Below, piece after piece: positions 4,633 to 44,660 of a DNA stretch of 64,000 nucleotides. The stretch is taken from the NCBI RefSeq assembly GCF_947631635.1, contig NZ_CANRMB010000009.1, forward strand, positions 1 to 64,000, in the 5' to 3' direction. Position numbers and translations under genes: made by a program. The notes under the pieces are model-generated. The model saw only the letters and a list, made by a program, of their open reading frames with translations, was not told the DNA's origin and did no database searches. How positions within the stretch are numbered: the stretch's first letter is position 1; every line of letters starts with the position of its first letter. The stretch comes from an uncultured Dysosmobacter sp. GTDB lineage: Bacteria > Bacillota > Clostridia > Oscillospirales > Oscillospiraceae.

Positions 4633-4820
4633 CCAAGCATGATAGAGGCGCGGATGTCAAGAGTAGTCCCTCCCATACGGACAGGTCCGGGGAAGGCGGA
4701 AAGGGGCATTTGCCGAGGTTTTGGCTCTCCGCCTGTGGGGACCGGAGCCGGGCCGTGGGAGAACATCCCACGGACTGTCGTCTCGAAAGGGACGGAGCGC
4801 TGTCGTGGATTCATACATGG
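4633..4820 (+). promoter_or_regulatory. Lysine riboswitch (L box) aptamer
   Basis: The conserved L-box blocks appear in order: GATAGAGGCGCGG (4641-4653), AGTAG (4662-4666), GGCGGAAAGGGG (about 4697-4708), GCCGAGG, then ACTGTCG and GGAGCGCTGTCGTGG. The basal P1 stem is formed by about 4633-4642 with 4811-4820. Lysine binding stabilises P1; without it, 4810-4816 can pair with 4830-4836 as an antiterminator, opening the terminator at 4832. It therefore switches the downstream transporter off when lysine is plentiful. Confidence 0.92.
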
Positions 4821-7725: not shown

Positions 7726-7729
7726 GCAG

Positions 7730-8287: not shown

Positions 8288-8901
8288 TGGTATATCTGAA
8301 ACTGTTCTGGGAGTTTTTCAAGACCGGCCTCTTTGCCATCGGCGGCGGCATGGCGACGCTGCCCTTTCTGAAAAATATCGGAGAGACCACCGGCTGGTAC
8401 ACCTACGGCGATCTGATGAACATGCTGGCGGTGTCGGAGTCCACCCCCGGCCCCATCGGCATCAACATGGCCACCTATGTGGGCTATACCGTGAGCGGTA
8501 TCCCCGGGGCATTTATTGCCACCATCGGCGAGGTGACGCCCTCCATCATCGTGATTTTGATCGTGGCCATGATGCTGAAGAAATTCCGGGACAACAAGTA
8601 TGTGAACCAGGCCTTTTACGGCCTGCGGCCCGCCTCCACCGGCCTGATCGGAGCCGCCTGTGTGGCGGTGGTCCTGGAGGTGCTGACCTCCATAGAGTCG
8701 GTGAAGCCCGCGGCGGGGGAGGGCATCGTGAATGCCTTCCGCATCGCGGGGGACTCCCTGCTGAACTGGCGTGGGCTGGCTCTGGCGGCGGTGCTGCTGG
8801 TTCTGACCAACTGGGTGAAGCCGGTGAAAAACTGGCACCCCATCGTCTTTATCGGTATTTCCGCCGTGGTGGGCGTGGCCTTTGGCTTTGCCGGAGTGTG
8901 A
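8284..8901 (+). CDS. Chromate transporter family protein, second half
   Basis: 205 residues. LFWEFFKTGLFAIGGGMATLPFL and the VSESTPGPIGINMATYVGY block repeat the CHR signature seen in the partner. The start overlaps the previous stop by ATGA, so the two subunits are co-translated. Together they equal one long two-domain ChrA. The second half has a longer C-terminal hydrophobic region ending in VVGVAFGFAGV. Confidence 0.88.
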   Translation: MMVYLKLFWEFFKTGLFAIGGGMATLPFLKNIGETTGWYTYGDLMNMLAVSESTPGPIGINMATYVGYTVSGIPGAFIATIGEVTPSIIVILIVAMMLKKFRDNKYVNQAFYGLRPASTGLIGAACVAVVLEVLTSIESVKPAAGEGIVNAFRIAGDSLLNWRGLALAAVLLVLTNWVKPVKNWHPIVFIGISAVVGVAFGFAGV

Positions 8902-8904
8902 GCC

Positions 8905-9390
8905 GTGCTGGCAAAGAAGGAGCTGTATGCCCTGCTGGACAGCCGGGGCATTCCGTACGAGGCAGTGGAGCATCCGGCGGTGTACACCATGGAGGAGATG
9001 GAGTCCCTGGGCCTGCCGGGACAGGACCGGGTGCTGAAAAACCTCTTCCTGCGGGATGACAAGAGGCGAAACTACTATCTGGTCTCCATGGCGGGGCACA
9101 AGACGGCGGATCTGAAGGCCCTGCGGCACAGCCTTTCCAGCCGTCCGCTGAGCTTTGCAAGCCCCCAGGAGCTGGGCCGCCTTCTGCACCTGGAGCCGGG
9201 CCACGTGACGCCGCTGGCGGCCCTGAACGACGAGAGCCGCACCGTCACCGTGGTGCTGGACCGGGACCTTGCGGGCAGGACCGTGGGCGTCCACCCGATG
9301 GAGAATACCGCCACGGTGTTCCTGGCTCTGGAAGCTGTTCAAAGGCTTCTGGAGGACCATGGGACGCCGGTGATCCTGTGTGAGATATGA
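8905..9390 (+). CDS. Prolyl-tRNA editing protein (ProX/YbaK-type deacylase)
   Basis: 161 residues, typical of free-standing YbaK/ProXp editing domains. The N-terminal AVEHPAVYTMEEM and later NLFLRDDKRRNYYLVSMAGHKTADLK match the PrdX subgroup, in which a conserved lysine and the GXXXP-like loop around GVHPMENTATVF shape the site. It probably hydrolyses mischarged Ala-tRNA(Pro). The GTG start at 8905 is 3 bp after the transporter stop, so it may be co-transcribed with it. Confidence 0.85.
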   Translation: MLAKKELYALLDSRGIPYEAVEHPAVYTMEEMESLGLPGQDRVLKNLFLRDDKRRNYYLVSMAGHKTADLKALRHSLSSRPLSFASPQELGRLLHLEPGHVTPLAALNDESRTVTVVLDRDLAGRTVGVHPMENTATVFLALEAVQRLLEDHGTPVILCEI

Positions 9391-9392
9391 AA

Positions 9393-9418
9393 AAGAGACC
9401 GCCGGACGGCGGTCTCTT
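9393..9418. terminator. Convergent terminator
   Basis: AGAGACCGCC pairs with GGCGGTCTCT. It lies between the plus-strand editing gene and the minus-strand gene ending at 9436 and can serve both. Confidence 0.8.
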
Positions 9419-9435
9419 CTGTGTTTCAGCAAAAA

Positions 9436-10251
9436 CTAATATCGTGGGTTCGTAAGGGGAAGAGCGTCATTGGTCTCCTGGGCGTAAAACCAATAGCGGA
9501 GGACCCAGGCCAGGGGATCATAGCTCCGGCCGCTCTCCCGGCTGATCAGCAGGTACGTTGGGATGCGGGGATACCAGTCGGGAAGGTCTTGATCCTGTGG
9601 CGGACGCCAGTCCCAGTGGGCGTCTCCGTGCCCGGGGATTTCGCGCAGGACCAGGCGCTTCAATTCTCCCGCCAGCGCAGTCAGGTCCAGCAGGTCCTCC
9701 TGTTGTTCCAGAAAGGCGGCGCCCCGCAGCGCGGGATCGCTGGGACAGAGCGTCAGGAGTTCCGCCTCCAGCATTTCCTGGGCCTGCCGGGTGGGCTCCA
9801 GGGGGATGTGACGCTCCCGGGCACAGGCGGCGGCCCGCTCTTCTGTGTGCTGGGCCAGCGCATGGCAGAGCACCCATTTGTCGGTCTCCCGGATGGAGGC
9901 CAGTCCGATGACAGATGCGTCCAGATAGGGAAGAATCTTTTCCTCCAGCGCCAGGGCGATCTCTTCCAGGTAGGCGTCCAGCTCCGCCTGAGTGGCATAG
10001 TCCGCGTGCTGGAACCGGCACAGGCCGGATAGATGGGAGAGCTCCAAATGGACGAACGGGCGACTTATTGTAAAATCTCCCCCCAGCCGCGCGCCCCGGC
10101 GTGAGTGGCCGACCGGGGTATCGAAGCGGATAAAGCGGCTCCCGTATTCCGTGCAAAAATCATAGACGCCGCCGCTTTGTCCATACAGGTGATACCCGTG
10201 CCGCTCCAGAACAGGCACGATCTTTTTCATCATGCCGGGCTTGATCCGCAT
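9436..10251 (-). CDS. Conserved protein of unknown function, 271 aa
   Basis: A soluble 271-residue protein without signal or membrane segments. Strong internal features are few: an N-terminal block MMKKIVPVLERHGYHLYGQ, a central acidic helix (AYLEEIALALEEKILPYLD) and aromatic-rich stretches such as HWDWRPPQDQDLPDWYP near the C-terminus. I do not recognise a family with confidence. The gene ends 7 bp after the udk stop region on the same strand, so it is likely the second gene of a udk operon. Confidence 0.6.
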   Translation of the reverse strand: MRIKPGMMKKIVPVLERHGYHLYGQSGGVYDFCTEYGSRFIRFDTPVGHSRRGARLGGDFTISRPFVHLELSHLSGLCRFQHADYATQAELDAYLEEIALALEEKILPYLDASVIGLASIRETDKWVLCHALAQHTEERAAACARERHIPLEPTRQAQEMLEAELLTLCPSDPALRGAAFLEQQEDLLDLTALAGELKRLVLREIPGHGDAHWDWRPPQDQDLPDWYPRIPTYLLISRESGRSYDPLAWVLRYWFYAQETNDALPLTNPRY

Positions 10252-10258
10252 GATGCCC

Positions 10259-10876
10259 TCACTCCCCGTCGATGTGGGTCTGGATGCGCTGCATGATCAT
10301 CTCCAGGGCCACCAGGTTGTGGCCGCCCTCCAGCACCACGATGTCCGCGTACTTCCGGGAGGGCTCCACATACTGCTCATGCATGGGCTTGACGGTGGTG
10401 AGGTACTGCGTCACCACGGATTGGAGGGTCCGGCCCCGCTCCTCCACGTCCCGCAGGGCGCGGCGGAGGATGCGCTCGTCGGCGTCGGTCTCCACAAAGA
10501 TCTTGATGTCGAACATGTCCCGCAGGGTGGGGTTCTGGAAGATCAGGATGCCCTCCACGATGATGACCTTGGTGGGAAAGATCTCCACCGTCTCATCGGT
10601 GCGGTTGTGGTCCGAATAGGAGTACACGGGGCACTGGATGGCGCGGCCCGCCTTCAGCTCCTTCAGATGCTCGATCAGCAGGTCCGTGTCAAAGGCGCTG
10701 GGGTGGTCGTAGTTCACCTGGGCCCGCTCCTCGTAGGTCTTGCCCTCCTGCCGCTTGTAATAGCTGTCATGGCCGATAACCGTGACCTCCGGGCCGAAAT
10801 GCTCCTTCAAATGCCGCGTCAGAGTCGTTTTGCCGGAGCCGGTGCCGCCGGCGATGCCGATCAAAATGGTGCTCAT
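10259..10876 (-). CDS. udk: Uridine kinase
   Basis: 205 residues, normal for Udk. Walker A GIAGGTGSGKTT is at about residues 6-17, HDSYYK and YDHPSAFDTDLL are the nucleoside-binding region, and the lid region holds RRALRDVEERGRT. It phosphorylates uridine or cytidine with ATP or GTP in pyrimidine salvage, and so complements uraA in the same window. The start at 10876 has GGGAGG about 10 bp upstream; an extended start at 10933 is less likely. Confidence 0.9.
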   Translation of the reverse strand: MSTILIGIAGGTGSGKTTLTRHLKEHFGPEVTVIGHDSYYKRQEGKTYEERAQVNYDHPSAFDTDLLIEHLKELKAGRAIQCPVYSYSDHNRTDETVEIFPTKVIIVEGILIFQNPTLRDMFDIKIFVETDADERILRRALRDVEERGRTLQSVVTQYLTTVKPMHEQYVEPSRKYADIVVLEGGHNLVALEMIMQRIQTHIDGE

Positions 10877-11065
10877 ATCCCAGAAACCTCCCATGCTCGC
10901 TGTCCTGCGGTCAATTTTGCCTTTTCCACCCAATTATAAAAGTGAACCGGGATAAAAGCAAGGAAAAGTGTGAATTTCCTGAAAATTCGACGGCCTGGTC
11001 TTGACGGCTGTGGAAAAAGCCGATATTATGTAAATTGTAATTCATAACATGCGGGAGGATCTGTC

Positions 11066-12028
11066 ATGGCGATGAAACGCTGTCCGGTCTGCGGAGAGAA
11101 GTACTCCGATACATATAAAGACTGTCCCTTTTGCGAAGAGGAAGCGGCCCTGATGGAGGGCGAGAAGAACCGCCGGAGCGGCCGGCGCGTATCCCACGGG
11201 CGGCAGTACAGCCTGATCACGCCCACCCTGATCGTTTTGATCCTGATCATGGCAGCGCTGCTGGTATACCTGCTGTACGGCGACGAGCTGGCCCAGAAGC
11301 TGAAAGGCGGGCAGGAGGAGAACACGCCGCCGACAGAGGACATCACACCTGTCAAGCCGGATGTCCCGAACCAGACGGACGAAACGGAGCCCAACGAGGA
11401 ACCCAACGGCGTGATGCCGGAGGGACCGGATGACACCACAGAGCCCTCTGACACAGAAGACCAGCCCACAACCACCCAGCCTGCGGCCCAAACGGATTAT
11501 GAGAAGCTCTCCAAGCTGCCGGGCGGCCTGACGCTCAGCACCACGGACTTCACACTGAAGACCGCGGGAGAGACCCATACCATCCAGGTCAGCGGCGGCA
11601 GCGGCACCTATACCTGGGCCAGTGAGGACGAGGGCGTTGCCTCCGTGGACCAGAACGGCAAGGTCACGGCCATTTCCAGGGGCACGGTGAACATCGTGGT
11701 GTCCGACGGCAGCAAGAAGGGGACCTGCATCGTCCGCTGCAATGTCTCCGGCACCGCAGCCCCGCCGTCCACCACTCCCACCACTGCCCCGAACACATCC
11801 TCCGGCACCTTGAAGGCGGGGGCCGCGACGGTGGTCAACGGCGGCAACGGCGTGCGGGTGCGCTCCGGCCCAGGCACCAACTATGATATCCTGGCCTCCG
11901 TCCCCAACGGCGCGGACATCCAGATCGTGGAGAGCGCGGGAGACGGCTGGTACAAGATCACCTTCTCCGACGTGGGGGGCGCAGCGACGCCTGGCTATAT
12001 GAAGGGCGAGTTCTTACAGAATCAATGA
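11066..12028 (+). CDS. Zinc-ribbon, membrane-anchored protein with Ig-like and SH3b domains
   Basis: 320 residues in clear order: an N-terminal zinc ribbon CPVCGEKY to CPFCEEE (about 6-29), one membrane span (ITPTLIVLILIMAALLVYLLY, about 52-72), a Pro/Thr/Glu-rich linker (about 80-150), a BIG2-like Ig domain with TWASEDEGVASVDQNGKVTA, a second Pro/Thr linker and a C-terminal bacterial SH3 domain (GVRVRSGPGTNYDILASVPNG). The ribbon is cytoplasmic and the SH3b faces the wall, suggesting cell-envelope sensing or peptidoglycan binding. It is monocistronic with its own terminator. Confidence 0.8.
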   Translation: MAMKRCPVCGEKYSDTYKDCPFCEEEAALMEGEKNRRSGRRVSHGRQYSLITPTLIVLILIMAALLVYLLYGDELAQKLKGGQEENTPPTEDITPVKPDVPNQTDETEPNEEPNGVMPEGPDDTTEPSDTEDQPTTTQPAAQTDYEKLSKLPGGLTLSTTDFTLKTAGETHTIQVSGGSGTYTWASEDEGVASVDQNGKVTAISRGTVNIVVSDGSKKGTCIVRCNVSGTAAPPSTTPTTAPNTSSGTLKAGAATVVNGGNGVRVRSGPGTNYDILASVPNGADIQIVESAGDGWYKITFSDVGGAATPGYMKGEFLQNQ

Positions 12029-35788: not shown

Positions 35789-35864
35789 GATCCGGTAGCT
35801 CAGCCGGCAGAGCAACTGCCTTTTAAGCAGTGGGTCCGGGGTTCGAATCCCCGCCGGGTCACCA
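35789..35864 (+). tRNA. tRNA-Lys (anticodon TTT), integration target
   Basis: Acceptor GATCCGG with CCGGGTC, anticodon loop CTTTTAA (TTT), T-arm GGGGTTCGAATCCCC, CCA encoded. Its 3' 48 bases are the left att copy of the integrated element and are intact, so the tRNA stays functional. Confidence 0.95.
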
Positions 35865-35865
35865 G
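35817..35865 (+). repeat. att repeat, left copy (within tRNA-Lys)
   Basis: 49 bases identical to 44336-44384. Covers the anticodon loop through the 3' end of tRNA-Lys plus one G. Confidence 0.95.
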
Positions 35866-35867
35866 AG

Positions 35868-35914
35868 AAAAAATCCTCAAAGCCTTGAAAATACAGGGCT
35901 GTGAGGATTTTTCT
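35868..35914. terminator. Bidirectional terminator for tRNA-Lys and integrase
   Basis: AAAATCCTCA paired with TGAGGATTTTT through an interrupted GCC stem. It is supplied by the element and replaces the original tRNA tail, now displaced to 44382. Confidence 0.75.
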
Positions 35915-35977
35915 TTTTCTGGAACCTGAGATATGTTCTCCGAATATGGCCTCAAAAGTACTGGCTTTTTCAAAGTG

Positions 35978-35999
35978 TGCAAGTCAAAATGCAAGTCAA
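35978..35999 (+). promoter_or_regulatory. Left arm-type integrase sites
   Basis: Two direct copies of TGCAAGTCAA at 35978 and 35990 (12-bp period). Similar sites lie near the right att at 44278 and 44289. Confidence 0.6.
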
Positions 36000-37153
36000 G
36001 CTTTCTTTTCCAAATAGGCGTCCAGCTTATCCACGGACTTTCTTTTGTGGATGGCGTCCAGGTGGGTGTATATCCGCAGCGTTGTGGAGACATCGGCGTG
36101 TCCCATTTGGGCACAGGCTTGCACCACGTCCACCCCGGCTAGATACATCAGCGTGCAGAAGGTATGCCGCAGCCAATGCATGGTGATGTTGGGGATGGTC
36201 ATATCAAAGACCTTTGGCCCCGGTTTGCTGGACTTCATGCGTTCCAGGTCGGCGGGGGTCCTGGTGCCGTACTTGATGTTCAGTTCCCGCATATAGGACC
36301 GCCACAGCTTTGCCCAGGCGGATTCTGTCATAACGCCGCCTTTGGCGCTGTGGATCACAAGCAGGTTGTCTCTTGGCAGAGCCGCCATGTAGTCGACAAG
36401 CCGCTGCGGGATATCCACGGTCCGCATACCGGCGTCGGATTTGGTGACGTGCCGGAGGCTGGGAACGCCGTTGGAATCGTACTCAATGACCTTGTTGACA
36501 GAGATGGTCCGCTCCTTTAGGTCCACGTCGTTCCAGGTCAGGGCGGCCAGTTCTCCACGGCGGAGGCCGGACAGCATCATAATGACCGCCACAGGCTGTG
36601 CCCGGTGTGGTGTGTTCCAAATCCATTGCTGTTCTTCTTCCGTCAGGGCGCGGCGCTGTTCCTCCTTGCGGCCAACGGCGGAAAGCTCCACTTGCGACTC
36701 TGGATTGACAGGGATGACCCGGCCCACGGCCCGCCGCATGATCTGGCGAATGGCAGAGCGGTACAGATTGATTGTGCGCTGTGAAAGCCCCTGATCTGTC
36801 AGGGCAATCAGCACCCGTTCGATATCATCCGCCCGCACCTGGCCGATCTCAAAGCCCTGTAATTCCTCTTTCCAGAGCTTCACGGCGCGGCGGTAGTTGT
36901 CCATCTGGCGGCAGGTGATGTTCTCTTTCTCTTTCAAGCGGAGCCAGTCATCCGCCCAGGTGTCGAAGCTGTCCCGCTGGGAAAGCACATCCAGGCCGCG
37001 GCCAAGCTGGAGCCGGACGGCGGTTTCCTTCTCCTTCAGTTCTGCCGGGGACTTGGCGTAGACGCTCTTATACTGCCGCTTGCCGTTCTCGTCCCGGCCC
37101 AGATAGATTTGAGCGCAATAGCGCCCGTCTGCCCGCTTCTTAGCCCTAGCCAA
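35996..37153 (-). CDS. int: Tyrosine recombinase integrase
   Basis: 385 residues from a TTG start at 37153 (GGGAGG 9 bp upstream). N-terminal arm-binding domain (RYCAQIYLGRDENGKRQYKS), SAM-like core-binding domain, and catalytic domain with Arg in SGLRRGELAAL, HxxR in HWLRHTFCTLM and nucleophile Tyr in MGHADVSTTLRIYTHL. It is of the phage/Tn916 type and integrates into the 3' end of tRNA-Lys next to which it sits. The open frame extends to 37216, but without a ribosome site. Confidence 0.95.
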   Translation of the reverse strand: MARAKKRADGRYCAQIYLGRDENGKRQYKSVYAKSPAELKEKETAVRLQLGRGLDVLSQRDSFDTWADDWLRLKEKENITCRQMDNYRRAVKLWKEELQGFEIGQVRADDIERVLIALTDQGLSQRTINLYRSAIRQIMRRAVGRVIPVNPESQVELSAVGRKEEQRRALTEEEQQWIWNTPHRAQPVAVIMMLSGLRRGELAALTWNDVDLKERTISVNKVIEYDSNGVPSLRHVTKSDAGMRTVDIPQRLVDYMAALPRDNLLVIHSAKGGVMTESAWAKLWRSYMRELNIKYGTRTPADLERMKSSKPGPKVFDMTIPNITMHWLRHTFCTLMYLAGVDVVQACAQMGHADVSTTLRIYTHLDAIHKRKSVDKLDAYLEKKA

Positions 37154-37168
37154 ATGGATTCGCCTCCC

Positions 37169-37197
37169 TTGCTTTTTGTCGAAAGCTATGATATATT
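37169..37197 (+). promoter_or_regulatory. Promoter of the structured RNA unit
   Basis: TTGCTT (37169-37174), 17 bp, TATATT (37192-37197), on the plus strand, opposite to int. Confidence 0.65.
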
Positions 37198-37276
37198 GAG
37201 CGCAGGAAAGAATCATCTTTCAGCGCTGCACAAGACGGCGGGCGGTTAGCCACATCCTCCGAAAGGAGGTGAGGCC

Positions 37277-37360
37277 ATGCCAATTACGATAACACTACAT
37301 ATCTTCGGATATACAGTGACGATTCGTATAAAAGGCAGAAACCGCCACCCTGGCCGGTGA
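37277..37360 (+). CDS. 27-residue basic, beta-prone peptide
   Basis: MPITITLHIFGYTVTIRIKG then RNRHPGR. The first 18 residues alternate hydrophobic and Thr/Ile residues; the tail is strongly basic. The ribosome site GGAGG with 7-bp spacing is near-perfect but paired in a hairpin. I do not recognise the family. It is convergent with the int/repressor strand, whose transcript would be antisense to it. A type I toxin is one possible reading; a regulatory leader or an exported basic peptide are others. Confidence 0.5.
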   Translation: MPITITLHIFGYTVTIRIKGRNRHPGR

Positions 37361-37467
37361 CGGTTTCTAGTGCTTTGCATTAGACTACTAAATCCAAGTC
37401 CGGGCTAACCGCTTGCCGCAGCGCCCTTTCTATATTTAGTATAACCGTCACATGATGAATTGTCAAT

Positions 37468-37499
37468 GCCCTGGGCTTCGGCCTGGGGCTTAATTTTTT
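37468..37499 (+). terminator. Terminator of the structured RNA
   Basis: GCCCTGGGC and GCCTGGGGC pair with two G-U pairs around a TTCG tetraloop and are followed by T6. It overlaps the end of the repressor gene on the other strand. Confidence 0.7.
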
Positions 37500-38094
37500 A
37501 CCATACTTCTTCGCCTCTAGGTGGTCCCCAGTCGATTTCTTCGCTCTTTAGCGGTGCTTCTGCCCTCTCTGGCGGCTCTCCTGTGCCCTCTGACGGGCTT
37601 TCTGGTGAGGCGGTATCCGTACCCTCTGGCGGGGCCTCTGTGGGCGGGTCCTGGCGCTGGTATTTGGGTATCTCGGTCAGCTCCTCGACGCGCTCCACGG
37701 CTTTCTGCTGGCCGTCATCGTTGAGCTTGTTAAAAAGAGTGACCAGTGTCTCTTCAGGAGCAGAAAAAGAGTATCCTTTACTTTTGTGTTCACGCTCTGC
37801 GTAATATACAGCTAATTTCGCCGCCTTTTCTATGTGATAGTCTTCCGTAGCAAATACGCGCATTACGTTGTATGCATGTCGCTCTTCTATTGAAAGTTCT
37901 TCTCCCCAAAGTAACCAATAAAAGTCACATTTAAGAGCATCAGCAATGCGTTGGACAGTCTCTTGCTTCGGATTTCGTAAATCGTTTTCCCATTGAGCAA
38001 GCGTTTGGTAAGTAACTCCTAATTTTGCCCCTAATTCTCGTTGAGTTAGACCAGCCTTTTTCCTAGCTGCTTTTATGCGTTGTCCGGTGGTCAT
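37498..38094 (-). CDS. Xre-family repressor of the element
   Basis: 198 residues. N-terminal helix-turn-helix (RIKAARKKAGLTQRELGAKL then GVTYQTLAQWENDLRNPKQE), a central segment with a short helical region, and a Pro/Glu/Ser-rich tail (about 150-198). No ImmA-type peptidase or LexA-type cleavage site is visible, so derepression must occur by another route, for example a helper-phage antirepressor as in SaPI Stl. The start at 38094 has GAGGTG 6 bp upstream. Divergent from the Cro-like gene across a 141-bp operator region. Confidence 0.85.
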   Translation of the reverse strand: MTTGQRIKAARKKAGLTQRELGAKLGVTYQTLAQWENDLRNPKQETVQRIADALKCDFYWLLWGEELSIEERHAYNVMRVFATEDYHIEKAAKLAVYYAEREHKSKGYSFSAPEETLVTLFNKLNDDGQQKAVERVEELTEIPKYQRQDPPTEAPPEGTDTASPESPSEGTGEPPERAEAPLKSEEIDWGPPRGEEVW

Positions 38095-38174
38095 GTGCAT
38101 CACCTCATTATGAGTATAGCATACATTAACAAAAACGCAAGAAAAAATTTTTGCAAAAGACTGTAAATTAGAAT

Positions 38175-38222
38175 TGACTTTTACTTTTGACTGTGATACG
38201 ATAAATGCAGTCAAAAGTAAAA
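38175..38222. promoter_or_regulatory. Lytic promoter overlapped by a 15-bp inverted-repeat operator
   Basis: TTGACT (38175-38180), 16 bp, TACGAT (38197-38202). A perfect 15-bp inverted repeat, 38179-38193 and 38208-38222 (TTTTACTTTTGACTG and complement), spaced by 14 bp, covers the promoter. The repressor's own leftward promoter has TATACT at 38113-38118 (complement). Confidence 0.7.
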
Positions 38223-38235
38223 GCGAGGTGAACAT

Positions 38236-38427
38236 ATGAGAATCAACCGAGAGCGTTTTGCGGCGGCTCTGGTCCGGCTCGATCTGAACGGCAACAAGCT
38301 GGCGGAAAAGGCGGGCGTGTCCCGTGGGACTGTAACGGCAGTTCGGACCGGCAAGAGTTGCAGCAGGGAGACGGCGGACAAGCTGGCCGCAGTCTTAGGA
38401 CAGGACATCATCGAGAAAGGAGACTAG
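38236..38427 (+). CDS. Cro-like HTH protein
   Basis: 63 residues: FAAALVRLDLNGNKLAEKAG then VSRGTVTAVRTGKSCSRETA, a single Xre fold and nothing else. It is the first gene of the rightward operon, facing the repressor. GAGGTG lies 7 bp before the ATG. It probably competes with the repressor for the shared operator. Confidence 0.8.
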   Translation: MRINRERFAAALVRLDLNGNKLAEKAGVSRGTVTAVRTGKSCSRETADKLAAVLGQDIIEKGD

Positions 38428-38430
38428 ACC

Positions 38431-38664
38431 ATGTATAGGCCGCAACGAATCAACAAGCCCCGGAGAGTGATTCACAGTATCGACGAGCTTCCGGTGCTGT
38501 GTGATGTCTGCGACGCCGGATTACTTTTGAGGCGGAATCCAGAGACCATAGCGAAAATGGCAAAGGACGGCATCCTCAAAGGGGCCAAGCAGGGGCAGAG
38601 CTGGTATTTCCGTCGGGATGATCTGGTGGAGTACATGAACAAATTGTTCGGGACAGGAGCGTGA
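38431..38664 (+). CDS. Excisionase-like helix-turn-helix protein
   Basis: 77 residues. LLLRRNPETIAKMAKDGILK then QSWYFRRDDLVEYMNK is the MerR-like winged HTH of the HTH_17/excisionase family. It follows the Cro gene by 3 bp. Likely the recombination directionality factor for the integrase, or a second regulator. Confidence 0.7.
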   Translation: MYRPQRINKPRRVIHSIDELPVLCDVCDAGLLLRRNPETIAKMAKDGILKGAKQGQSWYFRRDDLVEYMNKLFGTGA

Positions 38665-38668
38665 TAAG

Positions 38669-40522
38669 GTGACCGGCGACAAGCTTTTGAAACACGCAAA
38701 ATACTATGCCTCCCCGATGGGGCTGCGCGTATTTCCCTGCTGGCCGATGGAGAAATCCCCGGCTACAGTCCACGGCTGCAAGGATGCAACAGCGGACCTG
38801 GAACAGATCACAAAATGGTGGACAGGCTCCTACCTCTACAATATCGGCATCGCCACCGGCAGTGGTCTTGTGGTGCTGGATGTGGACATCGACCACGACG
38901 CCGGGAAATATGGGGACGAGACACTTGCAGAGCTGGAGCAGCGATATGGATCTCTGCCTGATACCTGGATGTGTCTTACCGGCGGCGGTGGCGTTCACTA
39001 CTACTTCAAGTGTGATGACCCAGCCCTAACCGTGGGGACCAGCTTTGCTCCAAGTCTGGACTATCGGGGGAACGGCGGCTATGTCATAGCGCCTCCCAGC
39101 GTTCACCAGAACGGGCATACATATGAATGGGAGGCAGAGCACACCCCTAGCAATACAGCCCTTGCACCGCTTCCTGAATGGCTTCACAGGCTCATGCTGC
39201 AAGGCAAGCAGAAGGACAAGCCCAGCACCGCAAAGACCGCCACAGAGGCCCCGGATAAGGTCGCAGAGGGGAACCGCAACACGGAGATGTTCAAGCTGGC
39301 GGCATCCCTGCGGGCGAAGGGACTGACGGTGGAGGAGACCACAGCCGCCATCATGGAGGCCAACAAGGCCAGGTGCAGTCCCCCGCTCTCTGACAGCGAG
39401 ATCAAGACAATCTGTAACAGCGTCGGACGGTATGAGCGGGGAGAGAGCAAGACAAAGACGGCACCCGCCGCACTGGTAAAGGCGTCAGAGGTTCCCTATG
39501 AGCCGCCCCGATGGACCATAGCACCTTACTTCCAGATGGGCAAGGGAACGCTGATTCAGGGAGACAACGGCAGCGGCAAGACTGCTTTCATGTGCGCTAT
39601 CGCCGCCCATATCACCACCGGAGAGCCGCTGTTGGGAATCAAGATCGCCACGCCTGGGGATGTGCTGATACTGTCTGTGGAGGATGACCTGCCTGTCCTC
39701 CGTGGCCGCGTCGAGGCCAACGGCGGGGACCTGGACAAGTGCCATTTCCTGACCAATGCCGCCGGGCTGACCTTCAACAGCCCAGAGGTAGAGGCGGCTA
39801 TCAAGCAGATCAACGCCAAAATGGTCATTTTTGACCCCTTCCAGGCGTTTCTAGGAGCGAAGGTCGATATGTTCCGTAGCAACGAGACCCGCCCAGAACT
39901 GGCGAGATTGTTTGAGATGTGTGAGCGCAACAACTGCTCCTGCGCCATCATCGCTCACATGAGTAAGAGCGGCGATAAGTCCCCAGTTAACAGGTCACTG
40001 GGCAGCGTGGACATCCCGGCTTCCATGCGGAGTATTTTGCAGCTTGTCCGCAATCCTGAGAACGAGGACGAGTGTGTCATGGTCCATGTAAAATGCTCCA
40101 ACGCACCGAAGGGGCCAAGCCTCGGCTACACCATCGGCGACCGGGGCGGCGTCCATTGGACCGGCTTCAAGGACATGACCGCCGAGGACCTGACCACCAT
40201 TGTCAGGCGCAAGGAGAAAGGCATCCCTTACGAGAAGGAGCCGCTTGTGCAGGTATTCAATCAGCTTGTGACAGATCGGCCCGGCGGCGGATTCTGGAGC
40301 TATGAGGACGTGAAGAGCGTCGGGGCAAAAATCCTGGGCTTCCCGCCGTTCTATTCAACCGCTGATCTGAAGCAAAAGCTGTCTGGCCCGTTCATCCGAG
40401 AACTACAGGAGAAGGACGGCCTGATTGTGACATGTGGGCATAAGTCGAATGGAGCGAGAGGAATCCGCATTGAGCAATACCAGCATCCACAAGGCTATCA
40501 AACGAGCCTGGGCACAGCGTAG
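38669..40522 (+). CDS. Primase-polymerase fused to RepA-like helicase
   Basis: 617 residues. The N-terminal prim-pol domain (PF09250 type) contains GSGLVVLDVDIDHDAGK (metal-binding DxD), GGGGVHYYFK and SLDYRGNGGYVIAPPS. A PriCT-like helical linker (GNRNTEMFKLAASLRAKG, NKARCSPPLSDSEIK) follows, then an AAA/RecA-type helicase with Walker A GDNGSGKTAF and Walker B MVIFDPFQAFLG. It is predicted to melt and prime the element's own origin, here next to the gene end. GTG start at 38669. This is the replication module seen in satellites and plasmids. Confidence 0.88.
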   Translation: MTGDKLLKHAKYYASPMGLRVFPCWPMEKSPATVHGCKDATADLEQITKWWTGSYLYNIGIATGSGLVVLDVDIDHDAGKYGDETLAELEQRYGSLPDTWMCLTGGGGVHYYFKCDDPALTVGTSFAPSLDYRGNGGYVIAPPSVHQNGHTYEWEAEHTPSNTALAPLPEWLHRLMLQGKQKDKPSTAKTATEAPDKVAEGNRNTEMFKLAASLRAKGLTVEETTAAIMEANKARCSPPLSDSEIKTICNSVGRYERGESKTKTAPAALVKASEVPYEPPRWTIAPYFQMGKGTLIQGDNGSGKTAFMCAIAAHITTGEPLLGIKIATPGDVLILSVEDDLPVLRGRVEANGGDLDKCHFLTNAAGLTFNSPEVEAAIKQINAKMVIFDPFQAFLGAKVDMFRSNETRPELARLFEMCERNNCSCAIIAHMSKSGDKSPVNRSLGSVDIPASMRSILQLVRNPENEDECVMVHVKCSNAPKGPSLGYTIGDRGGVHWTGFKDMTAEDLTTIVRRKEKGIPYEKEPLVQVFNQLVTDRPGGGFWSYEDVKSVGAKILGFPPFYSTADLKQKLSGPFIRELQEKDGLIVTCGHKSNGARGIRIEQYQHPQGYQTSLGTA

Positions 40523-40664
40523 GGACGCTTTCTCTTATACAAAATAATATATATATTTCGTCCCTTACTGACCCTTAACGTCCTATATAGCCCTATGTGT
40601 CACTGATAGCAGGGACGATAAGGGACGAAGTGTACACCGTTTTTTGTACGAGGGTAACGTCCCT
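40520..40664. other. Candidate replication origin with AGGGACG iterons
   Basis: Four full heptamers AGGGACG or complement are at 40521, 40559 (complement), 40611, 40621 and again at 40658 (complement), with a partial copy at 40579. A 25-bp AT-only-type stretch (about 40536-40557) sits between the first two. The location straight after the primase-helicase gene is where satellite and plasmid origins usually lie. No protein-coding frame is supported here. Confidence 0.55.
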
Positions 40665-40688
40665 CTTGAATTTGAAAGGAGAAAAATC

Positions 40689-40979
40689 ATGGAAAACACC
40701 AACAATATCACCGGCATCAAGGCGGAGTGCAGCATGGTCCTCACCATGACCCCGATGGAGGTGGACGCAATCAGTCTGGCCCTGGTGGTGGGCCTGGATG
40801 AATTGAAGTCGATCAACAGCACCGCTATCAAGCAGTTTGAACGGTATGCCCCTGGAAGTGAGGAGCAGCACAAAGCGTGCTCTAACCTGATGAAGTATCT
40901 GATTTATCAGAGCATCATGGAATCCGCGCTGGAGTGCGTTAGCGATTTCCAGAAGCGCCAGGAGGAGGCGGAAGCATGA
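40689..40979 (+). CDS. Small phage-type protein, 96 aa
   Basis: A mostly helical, acidic protein (GIKAECSMVLTMTPMEVDAI; C-terminal FQKRQEEAEA). AAAGGAG precedes the ATG at 40689; the track to 40644 has no ribosome site. Unknown function; it is the first gene after the origin and overlaps the next by ATGA. Confidence 0.65.
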   Translation: MENTNNITGIKAECSMVLTMTPMEVDAISLALVVGLDELKSINSTAIKQFERYAPGSEEQHKACSNLMKYLIYQSIMESALECVSDFQKRQEEAEA

Positions 40980-41281
40980 GCTACTACAAGATCTGTCCCC
41001 GCTGTGGGGCGCACCTGGACCCCGGCGAAGTCTGCGATTGCCAGAAGAATTTAAGGGATCGGCTCAAAGAGGAGGTTTTGAGCCTGACGGAGGAAGAGTG
41101 TGCTATGTTGCTACAAGCATGGAAGCTGCACAGGGCACACCCTGAATTGTCCAATCAAGAGTGTGTAGAAAAAGCCGCCCAGGGCGCTACCAACACCCAG
41201 GACGGCAAGGCGGAACAGGTTCTGACGGGCCTAAATTCCGCCTCCATCATACCAACAACGGGGGAGGTTCGTCAAGTATGA
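40976..41281 (+). CDS. Zinc-ribbon phage protein, 101 aa
   Basis: MSYYKICPRCGAHLDPGEVCDCQ: a four-cysteine ribbon (C7, C10, C20, C22) followed by a helical region (LKEEVLSLTEEECAMLLQA). Similar ribbons are common in clostridial prophage early regions. Starts by ATGA overlap. Role unknown, probably nucleic-acid binding. Confidence 0.7.
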   Translation: MSYYKICPRCGAHLDPGEVCDCQKNLRDRLKEEVLSLTEEECAMLLQAWKLHRAHPELSNQECVEKAAQGATNTQDGKAEQVLTGLNSASIIPTTGEVRQV

Positions 41282-41427
41282 ATTTTGAAGGAATGACCAG
41301 GGAGGAGCTACTGCAAGAGGCGCTACAGTGTATCTTGCTGCTGACCGATGAACAACTCGGCAGAGTCCTTGAACAATGCGAGGAGGAGTTTGACAAAGAA
41401 TGGAAAGATATGAAGATTACTACATAA
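41278..41427 (+). CDS. Small acidic helical protein, 49 aa
   Basis: MNFEGMTREELLQEALQCIL then acidic helices (EQLGRVLEQCEEEFDKEWKD). Starts by ATGA overlap with the zinc-ribbon gene. No family recognised; could be an anti-repressor or a small regulatory protein. Confidence 0.6.
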   Translation: MNFEGMTREELLQEALQCILLLTDEQLGRVLEQCEEEFDKEWKDMKITT

Positions 41428-41555
41428 TAAAGGCTTACAACCAACTCACAGAGAAGAACAAGCGCAAGGTAGACGATCTGATCCGAGCTCTTTTGGACTC
41501 ACAGTTACCCACTTACGCCCCCAGTAGGACGAAGCGGGGGCGGTACCAGTATTGA
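41400..41555 (+). CDS. Small basic phage protein, 51 aa
   Basis: MERYEDYYIIKAYNQLTEKN, then a basic end TKRGRYQY. ATG at 41400 overlaps the preceding gene by 28 bp; the stop at 41553 is just before the ribosome site of the next gene. Consistent phase and packing suggest it is real. Unknown function. Confidence 0.55.
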   Translation: MERYEDYYIIKAYNQLTEKNKRKVDDLIRALLDSQLPTYAPSRTKRGRYQY

Positions 41556-41566
41556 GGAGGTGCCTT

Positions 41567-41749
41567 TTGAAGATCACCGTAGCATACATCCCCGAAGAAG
41601 AGCCGGAGGCTGCCGCTGTCGCGGCGGCTATCCGCTCCATAAATCCCGGCATTACAGCCCGCAAAAGTGAGCGGCATCCCCCATTTAGGCACCTGTATTT
41701 GACCACTAGGAAGCCGAAAAAATGTTGTAATTCCAACGAATCCGCTTGA
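41567..41749 (+). CDS. Small phage protein, 60 aa
   Basis: A TTG start with GAGGAGG 6 bp upstream. LKITVAYIPEEEPEAAAV and the KSERHPPFRHLYLTTRKPKK block resemble a small protein found in clostridial phage early regions. The stop overlaps the -35 box of the next promoter. Function unknown. Confidence 0.65.
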   Translation: MKITVAYIPEEEPEAAAVAAAIRSINPGITARKSERHPPFRHLYLTTRKPKKCCNSNESA

Positions 41750-41775
41750 CATACCCCCGATAGCTATGGTACAAT
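41746..41775 (+). promoter_or_regulatory. Late promoter upstream of the scaffold gene
   Basis: TTGACA (41746-41751), 18 bp, TACAAT (41770-41775). It starts the attenuator RNA and the capsid genes. Confidence 0.75.
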
Positions 41776-41781
41776 TGTTCT

Positions 41782-41872
41782 AGTGAAATAGGCATGAGTA
41801 CCGCCCGCAGGGGTTAGCCGTCAAATGATTGAGGCATGGGAAACGATTTCAACATCGTTCTCATGCCTTTTT
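41782..41872 (+). ncRNA. Attenuator or small RNA before the capsid genes
   Basis: The terminator stem (41832-41838 with 41862-41868, plus 42-47 with 54-59) is followed by T5. Its 3' arm CTCATGCCT (41860-41868) is also perfectly complementary to AGGCATGAG at 41790-41798, so the RNA can fold two ways. This suggests a terminator/antiterminator switch, or an sRNA closed by the longer stem. It contains GGTTAGCC, also found in the closing stem of the 37-kb RNA. No known riboswitch class is recognised. Confidence 0.6.
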
Positions 41873-41987
41873 CTTATCCCTGACGGCGGAGGTCTTTCCG
41901 GGCTTGCGGCCATGCCCTTTCTCCTTTCCGCCTCCGTCATCAGGGAGTCTATCAAGCCGAACTCACGGCGTTAAACGGAGGTACACT

Positions 41988-42440
41988 ATGAGCGAAGAAA
42001 CCAAGACCACAACTACCGAACAGCCCACCACTCCCACCCCGGAGGACAAAGGGGGACAGGGCGAAAAAATGTTTACACAAGATGAAGTAAACCGTATCGT
42101 CTCTGAACGGTTGGCCCGTGAGAGAGCAAAGGCAGAGCCGAAAGAGGACGAACGAGAAACGGCGCTCAGAGAGCGCGAGAAGGCTTTGGAGGCCCGCGAA
42201 TCAAAATACAAATGCGCTGATTATCTGAAAGAGATCAACGTTGCAGCGGAATGTGCAGACGATCTGATGGAGGCTCTGGATACCGCTGATTTTGATAAAT
42301 TCAAGGCGGTCATGGGTAAGCTGGGCAAGTACTTTGTTGTACGAACCACAGAGCATGGCGCACCGCCCCCGGCAAATCCTCCCACTTTCTATAAAAGCGG
42401 AGATGAAGAGATTGCCCGCGCCTTCAAGCCTAAGATTTAA
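41988..42440 (+). CDS. Phage capsid scaffolding protein (DUF4355-like)
   Basis: 150 residues: Thr/Pro-rich start, acidic middle (MFTQDEVNRIVSERLARERA then KAEPKEDERETALREREKAL), a helical region and a C-terminal YFVVRTTEH. The coiled-coil form directly before a major capsid gene is the standard scaffold position. It assembles the procapsid and is absent from mature heads. GGAGG lies 9 bp before the ATG. Confidence 0.8.
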   Translation: MSEETKTTTTEQPTTPTPEDKGGQGEKMFTQDEVNRIVSERLARERAKAEPKEDERETALREREKALEARESKYKCADYLKEINVAAECADDLMEALDTADFDKFKAVMGKLGKYFVVRTTEHGAPPPANPPTFYKSGDEEIARAFKPKI

Positions 42441-42463
42441 TATTTTAGGAGTGATTTTATTTT

Positions 42464-43312
42464 ATGGCTATCAATCTGGTAACCAAATTTCTGCCCCATG
42501 TTGACGAGCAGTTCAAGAATGAATCTAAGCTGTCCATCCTGACCAACAATGACTTTGACTGGACCGGCGCACACACGATCAAGGTTTACAAGGTCAGCAC
42601 CAGCGCCATGAACGACTATGACCGCAACGGCACCGCCCGCCCCGACGAATGCAGTCGTTTCGGCCCTATCAAGGACTTGGACGCCGTTACGGAGGAGTTG
42701 ACCCTGACAAGGGACCGTTCTTTCACCTTCGCCATTGACAAGCTGGACAACGACGAGACCGCCCAGCAGGTGGCCGCCGCTTCTGCTCTGGCCCGCCAGG
42801 ATCGGGAGGTTGTCATCCCCGAAGTGGACAGCTACGTTTACGGCGTGATGGCGGCGAAGGCAGGTACAAAGGCCGCTGCCGTGGCTCTGACTGCGGAGAA
42901 CATCTATGACGAGATTCTGAAAGCCTCCGGTGCTCTGGACGATGCGGAGGTCCCCGAGACTGGCCGCGTGCTGCTGGTGACCCCCGCTACCTATGCCCTG
43001 ATGAAGAAGTCCCCGGATATCACCCTTGATTCCGATGTGGGCCAGGAGATGCGGCTCAAGGGCGTCATTGCCAATCTGGACGGCGCTCAGGTGGTGAAGG
43101 TTCCCGCTGTGCGTCTGCCTGCCGGTTTCGGCTTCATGCTGGCCCATCCTTCCGCAACTGTGGCCCCTGTGAAGCTGGAGGATTACCGGGCACACCAGGA
43201 CCCGCCCGGCATTTCCGGCAGCCTGGTAGAGGGCCGTATCTGCTATGATGCTTTTGTTCTGGACAACAAGGCAAAGGCAATCTACTATCAGCCTGTCAAC
43301 GCTGGCGCGTGA
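42464..43312 (+). CDS. Phage major capsid protein
   Basis: 282 residues. Starts MAINLVTKFLPHVDEQFKNE; the core contains VYKVSTSAMNDYDRNG, the helical EVDSYVYGVMAAKAGT, VLLVTPATYALMKKSPDI and the C-terminal FMLAHPSATVAPVKLEDY. Length and layout are those of HK97-fold capsid proteins of clostridial phages (P22-like class). It lacks a fused delta domain, consistent with the separate scaffold upstream. No protease, portal or terminase gene is present, so it would need a helper to make particles. Confidence 0.85.
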   Translation: MAINLVTKFLPHVDEQFKNESKLSILTNNDFDWTGAHTIKVYKVSTSAMNDYDRNGTARPDECSRFGPIKDLDAVTEELTLTRDRSFTFAIDKLDNDETAQQVAAASALARQDREVVIPEVDSYVYGVMAAKAGTKAAAVALTAENIYDEILKASGALDDAEVPETGRVLLVTPATYALMKKSPDITLDSDVGQEMRLKGVIANLDGAQVVKVPAVRLPAGFGFMLAHPSATVAPVKLEDYRAHQDPPGISGSLVEGRICYDAFVLDNKAKAIYYQPVNAGA

Positions 43313-43325
43313 TGATAGGGCACAA

Positions 43326-43363
43326 GGGGCGTGTGGGCAATAGCTCATACGCCCCGTCTGTTT
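43326..43363 (+). terminator. Terminator after the capsid gene
   Basis: A 10-bp stem GGGGCGTGTG with CATACGCCCC (one G-T pair), followed by a short T-run. Confidence 0.65.
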
Positions 43364-43373
43364 AGGTGATGAT

Positions 43374-43595
43374 ATGCAGAAGAAACGATTAAAAATGACC
43401 ACCAGCCGCGAGGTACGGCGGGCAGTCAACCGGATCACCAATATGTTATTGAATGGAGAGATTGACGCAAAGACCGCCAACGCTATTCTGTACGGATGTA
43501 ACGTCTGCCTGGGCGCTATTCGTGTTGACGATCAACAGGCCAAGCTGGACGAGCTGGAGAAGGTCATCAAGGATTTGGAGGAACATAGACGATGA
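43374..43595 (+). CDS. Small helical phage protein, 73 aa
   Basis: MQKKRLKMTTSREVRRAVNR, then a helical C-terminus ending LEKVIKDLEEHRR. AGGTG precedes the ATG. Overlaps the next gene. Unknown; possibly regulates packaging or late genes. Confidence 0.6.
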   Translation: MQKKRLKMTTSREVRRAVNRITNMLLNGEIDAKTANAILYGCNVCLGAIRVDDQQAKLDELEKVIKDLEEHRR

Positions 43596-43828
43596 ACATA
43601 CAGGACTTGGAACGCCGGGTAAATCTGCTGAAAGAGGAAAATCCTCTGTTCAGGTGTCATTATGCAGATGGCACAGTCATAACCATGACCGGGCATAATG
43701 CGTTGATCGCGGCGATCAAGGGTGAGCGGGACGGGGTGAAACTGCTGCAAGTAGAGCCGGAGGACCCATCGCAGGAAGGCGTGTGCGGCCTTGCAAATGC
43801 GCTGCTGACCGATGAGGAGGGTACATGA
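43592..43828 (+). CDS. Small phage protein, 78 aa
   Basis: MNIQDLERRVNLLKEENPLF, then FRCHYADGTVITMTGHNALIA. Starts by overlap with the previous stop and ends by overlap with the next start. No known domain. Confidence 0.6.
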   Translation: MNIQDLERRVNLLKEENPLFRCHYADGTVITMTGHNALIAAIKGERDGVKLLQVEPEDPSQEGVCGLANALLTDEEGT

Positions 43829-44044
43829 CACTGAAAGAACTAGAGCGCAGGATCAACCAACTGCGGACCCGCCCCCCTGGTGCTCTTGTGCCAGACTCTG
43901 GACGGTCAGGAACGGGAAATGAGTGTGCAGGAGTGCATGGAGACCGGCAGCGCCTTTATCCATGTTGTCAGCGGAAGTGATCTTGATGACCTGGATGAAC
44001 TTCTTGCCTATGAACTGAGAGGAATAAATACTTATGATGAGTAG
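43825..44044 (+). pseudogene. Small phage gene broken by a 1-bp frameshift at a C6 run
   Basis: From ATG 43825 the frame reads MTLKELERRINQLRTR then runs off into junk after a CCCCCC run near 43871-43876. The +1 frame continues sensibly: LVLLCQTLDGQEREMSVQEC and on to ELRGINTYDE, stop at 44042. The intact product would be about 72 residues and would resemble the neighbouring gene. A real mutation, a sequencing error or a programmed slip are all possible. Confidence 0.6.
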
Positions 44045-44267
44045 CTTTACCAATCGAATTGAAGCCTTGAAAGAGCGGATAGAACAGCAGAAGGCCATCT
44101 ATGCGCCGGAGTATATAGACCCCCTCAGTCAAAGTCTGCGGGCATTTTATGACGAGCTTGCAGCACTGGACGAGGAGGGCATCATGCGCCAGGCTCAGAA
44201 GATGGATTGTACTCCGGATATCGTGCGTAAGATGGCGCAGGATCATGCCTCGCCGGTGCGGCTCTAA
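44034..44267 (+). CDS. Small acidic phage protein, 77 aa
   Basis: MMSSFTNRIEALKERIEQQKA and a helical rest ending AQDHASPVRL. Last gene before the right att site; weak ribosome site GAGG. Possibly the accessory end of the capsid operon. Confidence 0.6.
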   Translation: MMSSFTNRIEALKERIEQQKAIYAPEYIDPLSQSLRAFYDELAALDEEGIMRQAQKMDCTPDIVRKMAQDHASPVRL

Positions 44268-44277
44268 TTTTCACAGG

Positions 44278-44298
44278 TGCAAGTCAGATGCACGTCAA
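44278..44298 (+). promoter_or_regulatory. Right arm-type integrase sites
   Basis: TGCAAGTCA at 44278 and TGCACGTCAA at 44289, matching the sites near the left end. They lie 38 bp from the att core. Confidence 0.55.
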
Positions 44299-44335
44299 AA
44301 ACGGCGAAGAACATTGATTTCAAAGGGCTTTACTG

Positions 44336-44384
44336 TGCCTTTTAAGCAGTGGGTCCGGGGTTCGAATCCCCGCCGGGTCACCAG
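44336..44384 (+). repeat. att repeat, right copy (partial tRNA-Lys)
   Basis: 49-bp perfect copy of the tRNA-Lys 3' end. It contains no full tRNA, as expected for attR. Confidence 0.95.
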
Positions 44385-44496
44385 CTCAGAAAAAGCCCTA
44401 AGGCGATGGAAAAAGCCTTAGGGCTTTTCTCATACGCCGGACGTGCTTTTTCTTCGCTTCCGGCCGCGACCCGCTCCGCTGGGCTCGCGGTCGGGG
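44382..44496 (+). repeat. tRNA-tail repeat, copy 2
   Basis: Follows the right att copy directly, so it is the original downstream tail of tRNA-Lys before the element inserted. About 115 bp similar to the tail of tRNA-Ser. Confidence 0.75.
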
Positions 44497-44546: not shown

Positions 44547-44660
44547 GCAGTTCAGAAAAGCTCTAAGGCGCTGAAAAGGCCTTAGGGCCTTTTCATACGC
44601 CGGATGTGCTTTTCCTTCGCTTCTACTGCGACCCGCTTCGCTGGTCTCATGGTTGGGTTT
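44547..44660 (+). repeat. tRNA-tail repeat, copy 3
   Basis: A more diverged third copy of the same repeat, about 50 bp further on, without a tRNA gene in front. Perhaps marks a lost or moved tRNA gene. Confidence 0.65.

Follow-up and report, generated by a model that had tools for sequence, protein, structure and literature searches.

The window analyzed here, i.e., the whole stretch of 64,000 nucleotides from an uncultured Dysosmobacter sp. (contig NZ_CANRMB010000009.1, positions 1 to 64,000), carries a compact element integrated at a tRNA-Lys gene (35817-44384). We read this element, with a probability of about 0.6, as a mobile satellite of tailed phages in which genes for a scaffold and a major capsid protein (MCP) are present. 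From these it is predicted to form small heads of its own, and a helper phage would supply portal, terminase, neck, tail and lysis functions. Its nearest MCP relatives are compact elements of the same kind, found in other species and at other insertion sites, and its capsid module is preceded by a conserved leader RNA, named R1 in this work.

Borders and gene content of the element

The element lies between two exact copies of a 49-bp direct repeat (35817-35865 and 44336-44384), the left one placed within the tRNA-Lys gene. Such perfect att repeats had been claimed in the first-pass annotation, made from the sequence alone; the borders that it gave were confirmed, and the length of the repeat unit was corrected to 8,519 bp. 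In genome G441, which belongs to the same genus, the end of tRNA-Lys (with one mismatch) runs straight into the right flank of the window element (92%, 106 bp; locus L179), which represents an empty attB site. This junction was found in one of the 25 loci compared (L175-L199, own locus included). The features of the element are as follows:

35789-35864, + strand: tRNA-Lys(ttt), integration target (ARAGORN)
35817-35865, + strand: attL, 49 bp, 3' end of tRNA-Lys (exact repeat; empty site in G441)
35996-37216, - strand: tyrosine integrase, 406 aa, open (PF00589 7.8e-18; phrog_1 2.6e-65)
37498-38103, - strand: CI-type repressor, about 201 aa (HTH_3 4.3e-19)
38178-38223, no strand: perfect inverted repeat of 16 bp in the repressor-Cro interval, putatively operator-like (inverted-repeat scan)
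38236-38427, + strand: Cro-like protein (HTH_3 9.6e-6; 32-55% identical in relatives)
38431-38664, + strand: AlpA/excisionase-like HTH_17 protein (PF12728 4.1e-10)
38669-40522, + strand: PrimPol-AAA primase-helicase, 617 aa (Prim-Pol PF09250 5.9e-41; AAA_25 PF13481 6.1e-24; PriCT_1)
40529-40657, no strand: AT-rich tract with AGGGACG/CGTCCCT repeats, 3' of the primase gene, putatively origin-like (inverted repeat, sequence)
40689-40979, 40976-41281, 41278-41427 and 41400-41555, + strand: four small open reading frames (ORFs) with no assigned function (ORF list, profile searches)
41567-41749, + strand: o60, 60-aa protein whose family members lie, in numerous relatives, just 5' of the late leader
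41746-41775, + strand: sigma-70 promoter TTGACA-18-TACAAT (11/12; promoter scoring)
41790-41872, + strand: leader RNA R1, AGUACC hairpin and intrinsic terminator (59.4 bits; fold and covariation, see below)
41988-42440, + strand: scaffold protein, about 150 aa (phrog_2303 4.8e-7)
42464-43312, + strand: MCP, 282 aa (phrog_422 1e-64; PDB chain 8e16_I 2.2e-12, profile A1)
43374-43595, + strand: o73, conserved 73-aa protein (686 homologues at E<=1e-3)
43592-43828, 43880-44044 and 44034-44267, + strand: three small ORFs with no assigned function (ORF list, PHROGs)
44336-44384, + strand: attR, 49 bp (exact repeat)

The intact integrase, the divergent repressor and Cro, and the primase-helicase named in the earlier annotation were all recognised, and its gene reading stands except for two points: the scaffold gene likely starts at 41988, and the leader RNA at 41790-41872 had been overlooked. 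The AT-rich tract with its repeats, described there as origin-like, is present as well; its label as an origin is a reading from the sequence, because the 47-nt inverted repeat that it contains is just 70% complementary. As in phage-inducible chromosomal islands (PICIs) of Gram-positive bacteria, an integrase and flanking att sites at a specific site are combined with a divergent repressor/regulator pair.

Scaffold and MCP had been named as the sole genes of the morphogenesis set. The comparison of 17 ORFs with PHROGs gave no match to terminase, portal, connector or tail families, and no small terminase subunit (TerS) was recognised in it. The scaffold protein matched four further PHROG scaffold families at E<0.01, and a Pfam match (0.0067) fell below the cut-off. 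The MCP could be aligned with a phage MCP from residue 1, the scaffold being a separate gene. Homologues of o60 were found in L003, L018, L021, L022, L027, L032, L034, L129, L131, L132, L135-L137, L144, L203 and L207.

Two 50-bp repeats, 80% identical, lie to the right of attR (44411-44460 and 44574-44623). In another genome (G439:C11:33429-44606) the tRNA-Lys gene and an exact 47-bp copy of its end are about 11 kb apart, which points to a further element integrated there. Elsewhere in the window there is a lysine riboswitch (4635-4810, 92 bits).

Relatives of the element and the phylogeny of its capsid protein

Scanning of genomes for the MCP gave 15 loci. Scaffold accompanies MCP in all 14 genome loci nearest to the window (L002-L015), and an opposing integrase lies upstream in 12 of them, being unrecognised in L002 and in L007, the latter a 3-kb contig; in most of these loci, the stretch between the integrase and the capsid module encodes a repressor, a Cro protein and a protein of the primase or helicase type. 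The search for the same gene order in other genomes, which had been proposed as a check, therefore showed that it recurs, and one of the relatives (L003; 48-bp repeat, integrase 88% identical to that of the window) likewise resides in a tRNA-Lys gene. Other insertion sites were tRNA-Arg (L004), tRNA-Gly (L005/L006), tRNA-Pro (L015, L032/L135 and L136) and tRNA-Met (L028). The members come mainly from Clostridia, with L004 from an Erysipelotrichaceae genome; named carriers among the loci are Parablautia intestinalis D8-82, P. muri D42-62 and Lachnospiraceae bacterium A2.

The size of 18 elements was delimited by att sites, terminal repeats or tandem period, and equals 8,857 bp on average (standard deviation (SD) 642, range 7,671-10,429), or 8,833 bp (SD 654, n = 17) without L129, whose 17-bp repeat lies outside a tRNA gene. 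With three further elements from outside this set, i.e., L033 (9,489 bp), L204 (9,981 bp) and L046 (13,007 bp), the sized elements number 21, of which 20 measure 7.7-10.4 kb. Repeats of 13-19 bp in L008, L009, L010, L012, L132, L133 and L208 were not accepted as att sites. The 31-bp repeat of L144, an element with a broken MCP in which the two copies lie 5.5 kb apart, was also set aside, and no att site could be located for L002, L013, L014, L021, L024, L029, L036, L038, L131, L203, L205 and L207.

Terminal direct repeats of 28-127 bp were present in 8 of the 26 whole contigs tested, these 8 being virus contigs. The contigs L050 and L069 are read as circles, because their terminal repeat falls within the MCP gene; in L023 the repeat adjoins the integrase and may be an att pair. 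L027 is a head-to-tail tandem with a period of 8,513 bp (100% over 4,942 bp). One genome (G074:C7) holds two satellites with closely similar MCPs in two places (L131 and L132).

The MCP tree comprised 114 rows (101 different), and rows below 230 aa were left out (e.g., L050, L069, L144 and L145). A row was labelled as phage if a large terminase subunit (TerL) or portal gene lay within 9.5 kb upstream, and as satellite if an opposing integrase lay upstream and there was no terminase; this gave 43 phage, 29 satellite, 5 terminase-after-MCP and 37 undecided rows, the last often representing a short contig or a divergent integrase. A clade of 55 rows (support 97/87; 53 rows at 100/96) contains all 29 satellite rows, 22 undecided rows, 4 with terminase after MCP and none of the 43 phage rows, with the reservation that the rows are not independent and some are identical. 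The sister of this clade has 11 rows, 8 of which are phages. Profiles derived from the Streptococcus phage Javan246 found terminase or portal beside the phage MCPs and gave no match in the window element; on the loci of the clade, they matched terminase only behind the MCP (see below), and further matches were a single isolated connector-type one in L040 and helper genes around L033.

The ratio of nonsynonymous to synonymous substitution rates (dN/dS, Nei-Gojobori) of the MCP equals 0.15 against L002 and L003 and 0.05-0.18 over all pairs tested, which indicates that purifying selection is acting on this protein. For o73 the ratio was 0.08 against L002 (a rough value, at dS 1.6).

The leader RNA R1 and the genes behind it

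In the window, the promoter, a strong one, is followed by R1 and then by the scaffold gene. R1 is composed of a conserved hairpin of the AGUACC...AAGC type and an intrinsic terminator, and its fold in the window has a z value of -3.2 (1 of 200 shuffles folds as well). In the model, for which 30 leaders were aligned, a consensus of 14 pairs is kept in 95% of cells. The covariation score was 0.481, compared with 0.268 for shuffles, none of 500 of which reached the observed value, and it did not exceed 0.154 on sliding. Both sides change in 7 pairs, compared with 4.7 for shuffles, 29 of 500 of which had at least that number; such scores are inflated by the relatedness of the sequences.

At E<=0.01, R1 was detected in 45 of the 55 clade rows (weakly in L043, 0.0044) and in none of the loci of the 59 other rows. 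Most matches are rows used in the model or their near-copies; those beyond the model include L004, L005, L028, L034, L043, L050, L069, L144 and L145. Four of the ten misses (L020, L042, L134 and L138) lack upstream sequence. A sigma-70-like promoter (>=9/12) was placed just upstream of 33 of the 36 leaders tested, where 6.3 would be expected from letter shuffles. Rfam gave no match to R1 at gathering scores, and at E<=10 just one 12-base stretch outside the leader. Among 200 sampled genomes of the host family (own included), 11 carry R1 at E<=0.001, in 8 cases strongly (E<=4e-7). Five of these 11 genomes have no MCP match, and in a sixth (G132) R1 lies upstream of a TerS-sigma module.

A general terminator/antiterminator switch, in which the 5' end of the leader would pair with the 3' arm of the terminator, was considered and is not claimed. 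Exact leader/terminator pairing of 8-16 nt is present in part of the family (9 nt in the window, 13 nt in L027 and 16 nt in L037), but in the other members it mostly did not exceed that of shuffles.

Different genes were found behind R1 in related elements. In L203 the gene that follows it (9744-11066) encodes a 440-aa major head protein from a different family (phrog_10 8.6e-31). In L208, R1 is followed by a 181-aa protein, TerS (7749-8240; phrog_51 3.5e-46) and a sigma factor, and in L204 by a 223-aa protein that has no family and by a sigma factor. A weak match (35 bits) precedes a 655-aa tape measure protein in L205 (6407-8374); another, in L207, has no known virion gene behind it, and one among non-phage genes (L206) is probably due to chance. 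A sigma-factor-like protein of phrog_351 follows the capsid or late module in L002 (9265-9927), L005 (10902-11738) and L204 (7429-8208); elsewhere this slot is occupied by a 114-aa protein with a zinc-ribbon-like protein, or by o73. Because R1 precedes different virion parts in relatives, these cases, although few, support its reading as a shared late switch placed before exchangeable virion parts. A broader proposal, to which we give even odds, is that of a Clostridia satellite superfamily with a common R1 switch and interchangeable virion-part cassettes (scaffold and capsid, a second kind of capsid protein, TerS, terminase and portal, or tape measure), each of which would replace a different piece of the helper virion, with R1 firing at the onset of late transcription in the helper.

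Helper phages, alternative explanations and known systems

A link with a helper comes from record G412 (L151/L152), where an otherwise complete-looking 49-kb siphophage-type prophage (TerS, TerL, portal phrog_533 1.5e-94, MuF, tail tube and a 1,287-aa tape measure) has its MCP gene interrupted by a satellite carrying its own MCP. The junctions share a short block of identity, ATGGACATT, and the interrupted MCP is 25-31% identical, over the aligned parts, to the MCPs of the satellite, the window or Javan. An insertion in a late gene of a prophage is therefore seen in this relative, whereas the window element lies in tRNA-Lys. Two other satellites may be embedded in a phage or merely neighbour it: the one in G423 adjoins a siphophage-type phage with a distantly related MCP (1.6e-28), and the one in G417 follows a late gene of a contractile-tailed phage, in which the MCP profile matched none. 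The co-resident phage with a related capsid, for which a search had been suggested, was looked for in the own genome, and the sole MCP match was that of the element itself, so that a resident helper of this kind was rejected. On contig C31 of the same genome (L158 8464-19758) there is a phage module of the contractile-tail type, which comprises TerL, portal, sheath and baseplate hub and represents a candidate helper, no more.

On induction, the satellite would excise and replicate through its own PrimPol/origin module. Transcription from the late promoter would stop at the terminator of the leader as long as no factor lets the polymerase pass; this factor could come from the helper or from the satellite, whose genes behind the MCP may encode such a protein. 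A small shell, matching a genome of about 9 kb in size, would then be assembled from scaffold and MCP on the portal of the helper, to be filled by the helper terminase and completed by the helper tail.

The best of the alternatives, although an unlikely one, is that the satellite MCP and scaffold co-assemble with the helper capsid protein and force a smaller shell, in the way of Ccm. It has a Gram-positive precedent in the Staphylococcus aureus pathogenicity island (SaPI) SaPIbov5, in which Ccm forms the pentamers and the helper capsid protein the hexamers (PMC8569155). This division of labour also calls for caution regarding an own shell. Ccm and its partner are just 19.2% identical in the modelled fold (PMC5052747), and the narrow range of element sizes would fit a small shell. 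However, the separate scaffold gene beside the MCP suits an independent assembly pathway, the MCP of the G412 helper is 25-31% identical in its aligned parts and is broken while the satellite is integrated, and the unlike MCPs of the phages neighbouring the G423 and G417 satellites do not suggest one dedicated capsid partner. We prefer an independent shell because scaffold adjoins MCP and the capsids of the neighbouring phages are unlike.

It is less probable still, and in our view doubtful, that the capsid pair disturbs helper assembly or rides along as a passenger, with satellite DNA travelling in ordinary helper capsids. This would agree with the PICIs of Gram-negative bacteria (GN-PICIs), whose capsid genes are reported to be unnecessary for transfer (PMC10111431), with the other virion parts found behind R1 in related elements, and with a scaffold dN/dS reaching 0.65 in one close pair; the low MCP dN/dS in every pair tested and the recurrence of the scaffold-MCP pairing through the clade speak against it.

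Decay of a prophage that lost its packaging and tail genes is very improbable. Phages with related MCPs do exist (Javan246, 49%) and a few satellite copies are broken, but the gene set and a similar size are kept across insertion sites and many species, the att sites are intact, the MCP is under purifying selection, and circle-like forms occur. The same locus with terminase, portal and tail genes, which the first-pass annotation had named as the observation that would speak for simple decay, was not found in close relatives, the nearest being the compact elements described above. The tree, the recurring compact element and its varied insertion sites support a satellite, and the decayed prophage was rejected on the 55-row clade without phage-labelled rows.

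Gene transfer agents (GTAs) encode portal and terminase. A GTA or an encapsulin-like compartment is the least credible reading. In its favour, packaging of the GTA type, with DNA of 4.6-8.9 kb, has been reported from Ruminococcaceae and Oscillospiraceae (PMC12946183), and the MCP matches Linocin_M18 weakly (0.0059, under the cut-off). Against it, the element brings an integrase, att sites and a replication module of its own, circle-like forms occur, no portal or terminase was recognised in it, and no cargo gene is evident.

Several observations weigh against the satellite with its own heads. An MCP gene does not imply a complete shell of its own, because Ccm, the capsid homologue studied best, needs the helper capsid protein and the capsid genes of GN-PICIs were dispensable for transfer (PMC5052747, PMC8569155, PMC10111431). 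No helper was identified: the own genome, searched with one TerL family (PF03237), gave the C31 module and no related MCP. The absence of terminase depends on profiles that can miss divergent ones, and the TerL profile indeed missed the terminase of G417, which was recognised by PHROGs. In five clade members (L028, L035, L043, L044 and L045) the MCP is followed by terminase genes; L035 has a portal as well, and own tail genes were shown in none of the five. Tape-measure genes occur shortly after the satellite capsid module near L018 (3831-4916), L042 (3507-5324) and L131 (5999-7975), and may lie within or outside the elements. The scaffold dN/dS is uneven, i.e., 0.22 (window/L002, dS 1.4), 0.40 (L013/L014) and 0.65 (L008/L013). 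Broken copies were also encountered, with the MCP split in two in G370 and G349:C272 and partial in G132; further split matches, in G110 and G151, are not on the tree. R1 was not found in six clade members with enough upstream sequence (L002, L019, L029, L044, L045 and L133). Finally, the AlphaFold model of the MCP had a predicted local distance difference test (pLDDT) value of 52, too poor for use.

Among known satellites, those of the P4-like type are characterized by the psu/sid/delta/alpha gene set. Late control at pR'-tR' of phage lambda relies on a strong promoter followed by a short leader, a terminator and then the late genes; the order is the same around R1, which differs in being a conserved two-hairpin RNA, with no Q-like protein identified. 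Capsid-forming PICIs (cfPICIs) encode packaging genes and take only tails, as the title of the original paper states. They differ in this respect from the window element, in which neither PHROGs nor the phage-derived profiles indicated own terminase, portal or connectors; the nearest to them in the window clade is L035 (725-5177), with leader, MCP, TerS, TerL, portal and a sigma-like protein, i.e., a step towards cfPICI-like content. The capsid genes of cfPICIs resemble those of the window family in forming separate clades of the phage capsid tree (review PMC11389934).

The SaPIs of the cos type with Ccm (e.g., SaPIbov5) are alike in being Gram-positive, in carrying a capsid-protein homologue and in using helper packaging (PMC8569155, PMC5052747). 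Ccm differs by its internal delta domain and its need for the helper capsid protein; the window MCP has no such N-terminal delta/scaffold domain, MCP and scaffold being separate genes. EfCIV583 is also a small Gram-positive satellite packaged in small heads, in which capsid genes had been suspected; this was rejected, because according to PMC3675006 and PMC6893505 neither a capsid nor a scaffold gene can be recognised in it. HK97-fold capsids were reported in 107 of 8,837 CRISPR-targeted circular gut sequences below 20 kb (PMC8530359), which may include some of the window family, although they are not described as phage satellites in the available part of that article.

A capsid gene without a full packaging set is known from GN-PICIs, 21 of 29 reference ones carrying an MCP gene, and from 11capE (PMC10111431), as well as from EcCICFT073 and PmCI172 (PMC6092414). 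The suggestion in the first-pass annotation that making a head and borrowing everything else would be a distinct strategy must therefore be narrowed: capsid-bearing satellites relying on helper packaging are already in print, as the SaPIbov5 articles also illustrate, and the claim of an unprecedented strategy was rejected, whereas the building of the whole head by the window satellite itself is a prediction. GN-PICIs and 11capE are likewise small int/AlpA/primase satellites, and 11capE of E. coli sits in the capsid gene of its helper, as the G412 satellite does (PMC10111431). They belong to another phylum and have another gene order and repressor module, and their capsid gene was dispensable; in the window family, the MCP gene has a scaffold gene beside it, and the two stand behind a conserved attenuator-like leader. 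The open-access PubMed Central (PMC) literature, as far as available (preprints outside its scope), gave no description of this family or of R1. As far as this search reached, a Bacillota (mainly Clostridia) satellite family with a scaffold-MCP pair and a leader RNA is thus new, and, judging by the 11 of 200 host-family genomes with R1, it appears to be common. It makes testable whether a satellite can supply the whole head and borrow only portal, motor and tail, and R1 can serve as a sequence tag by which such satellites are traced irrespective of the virion part that they encode.

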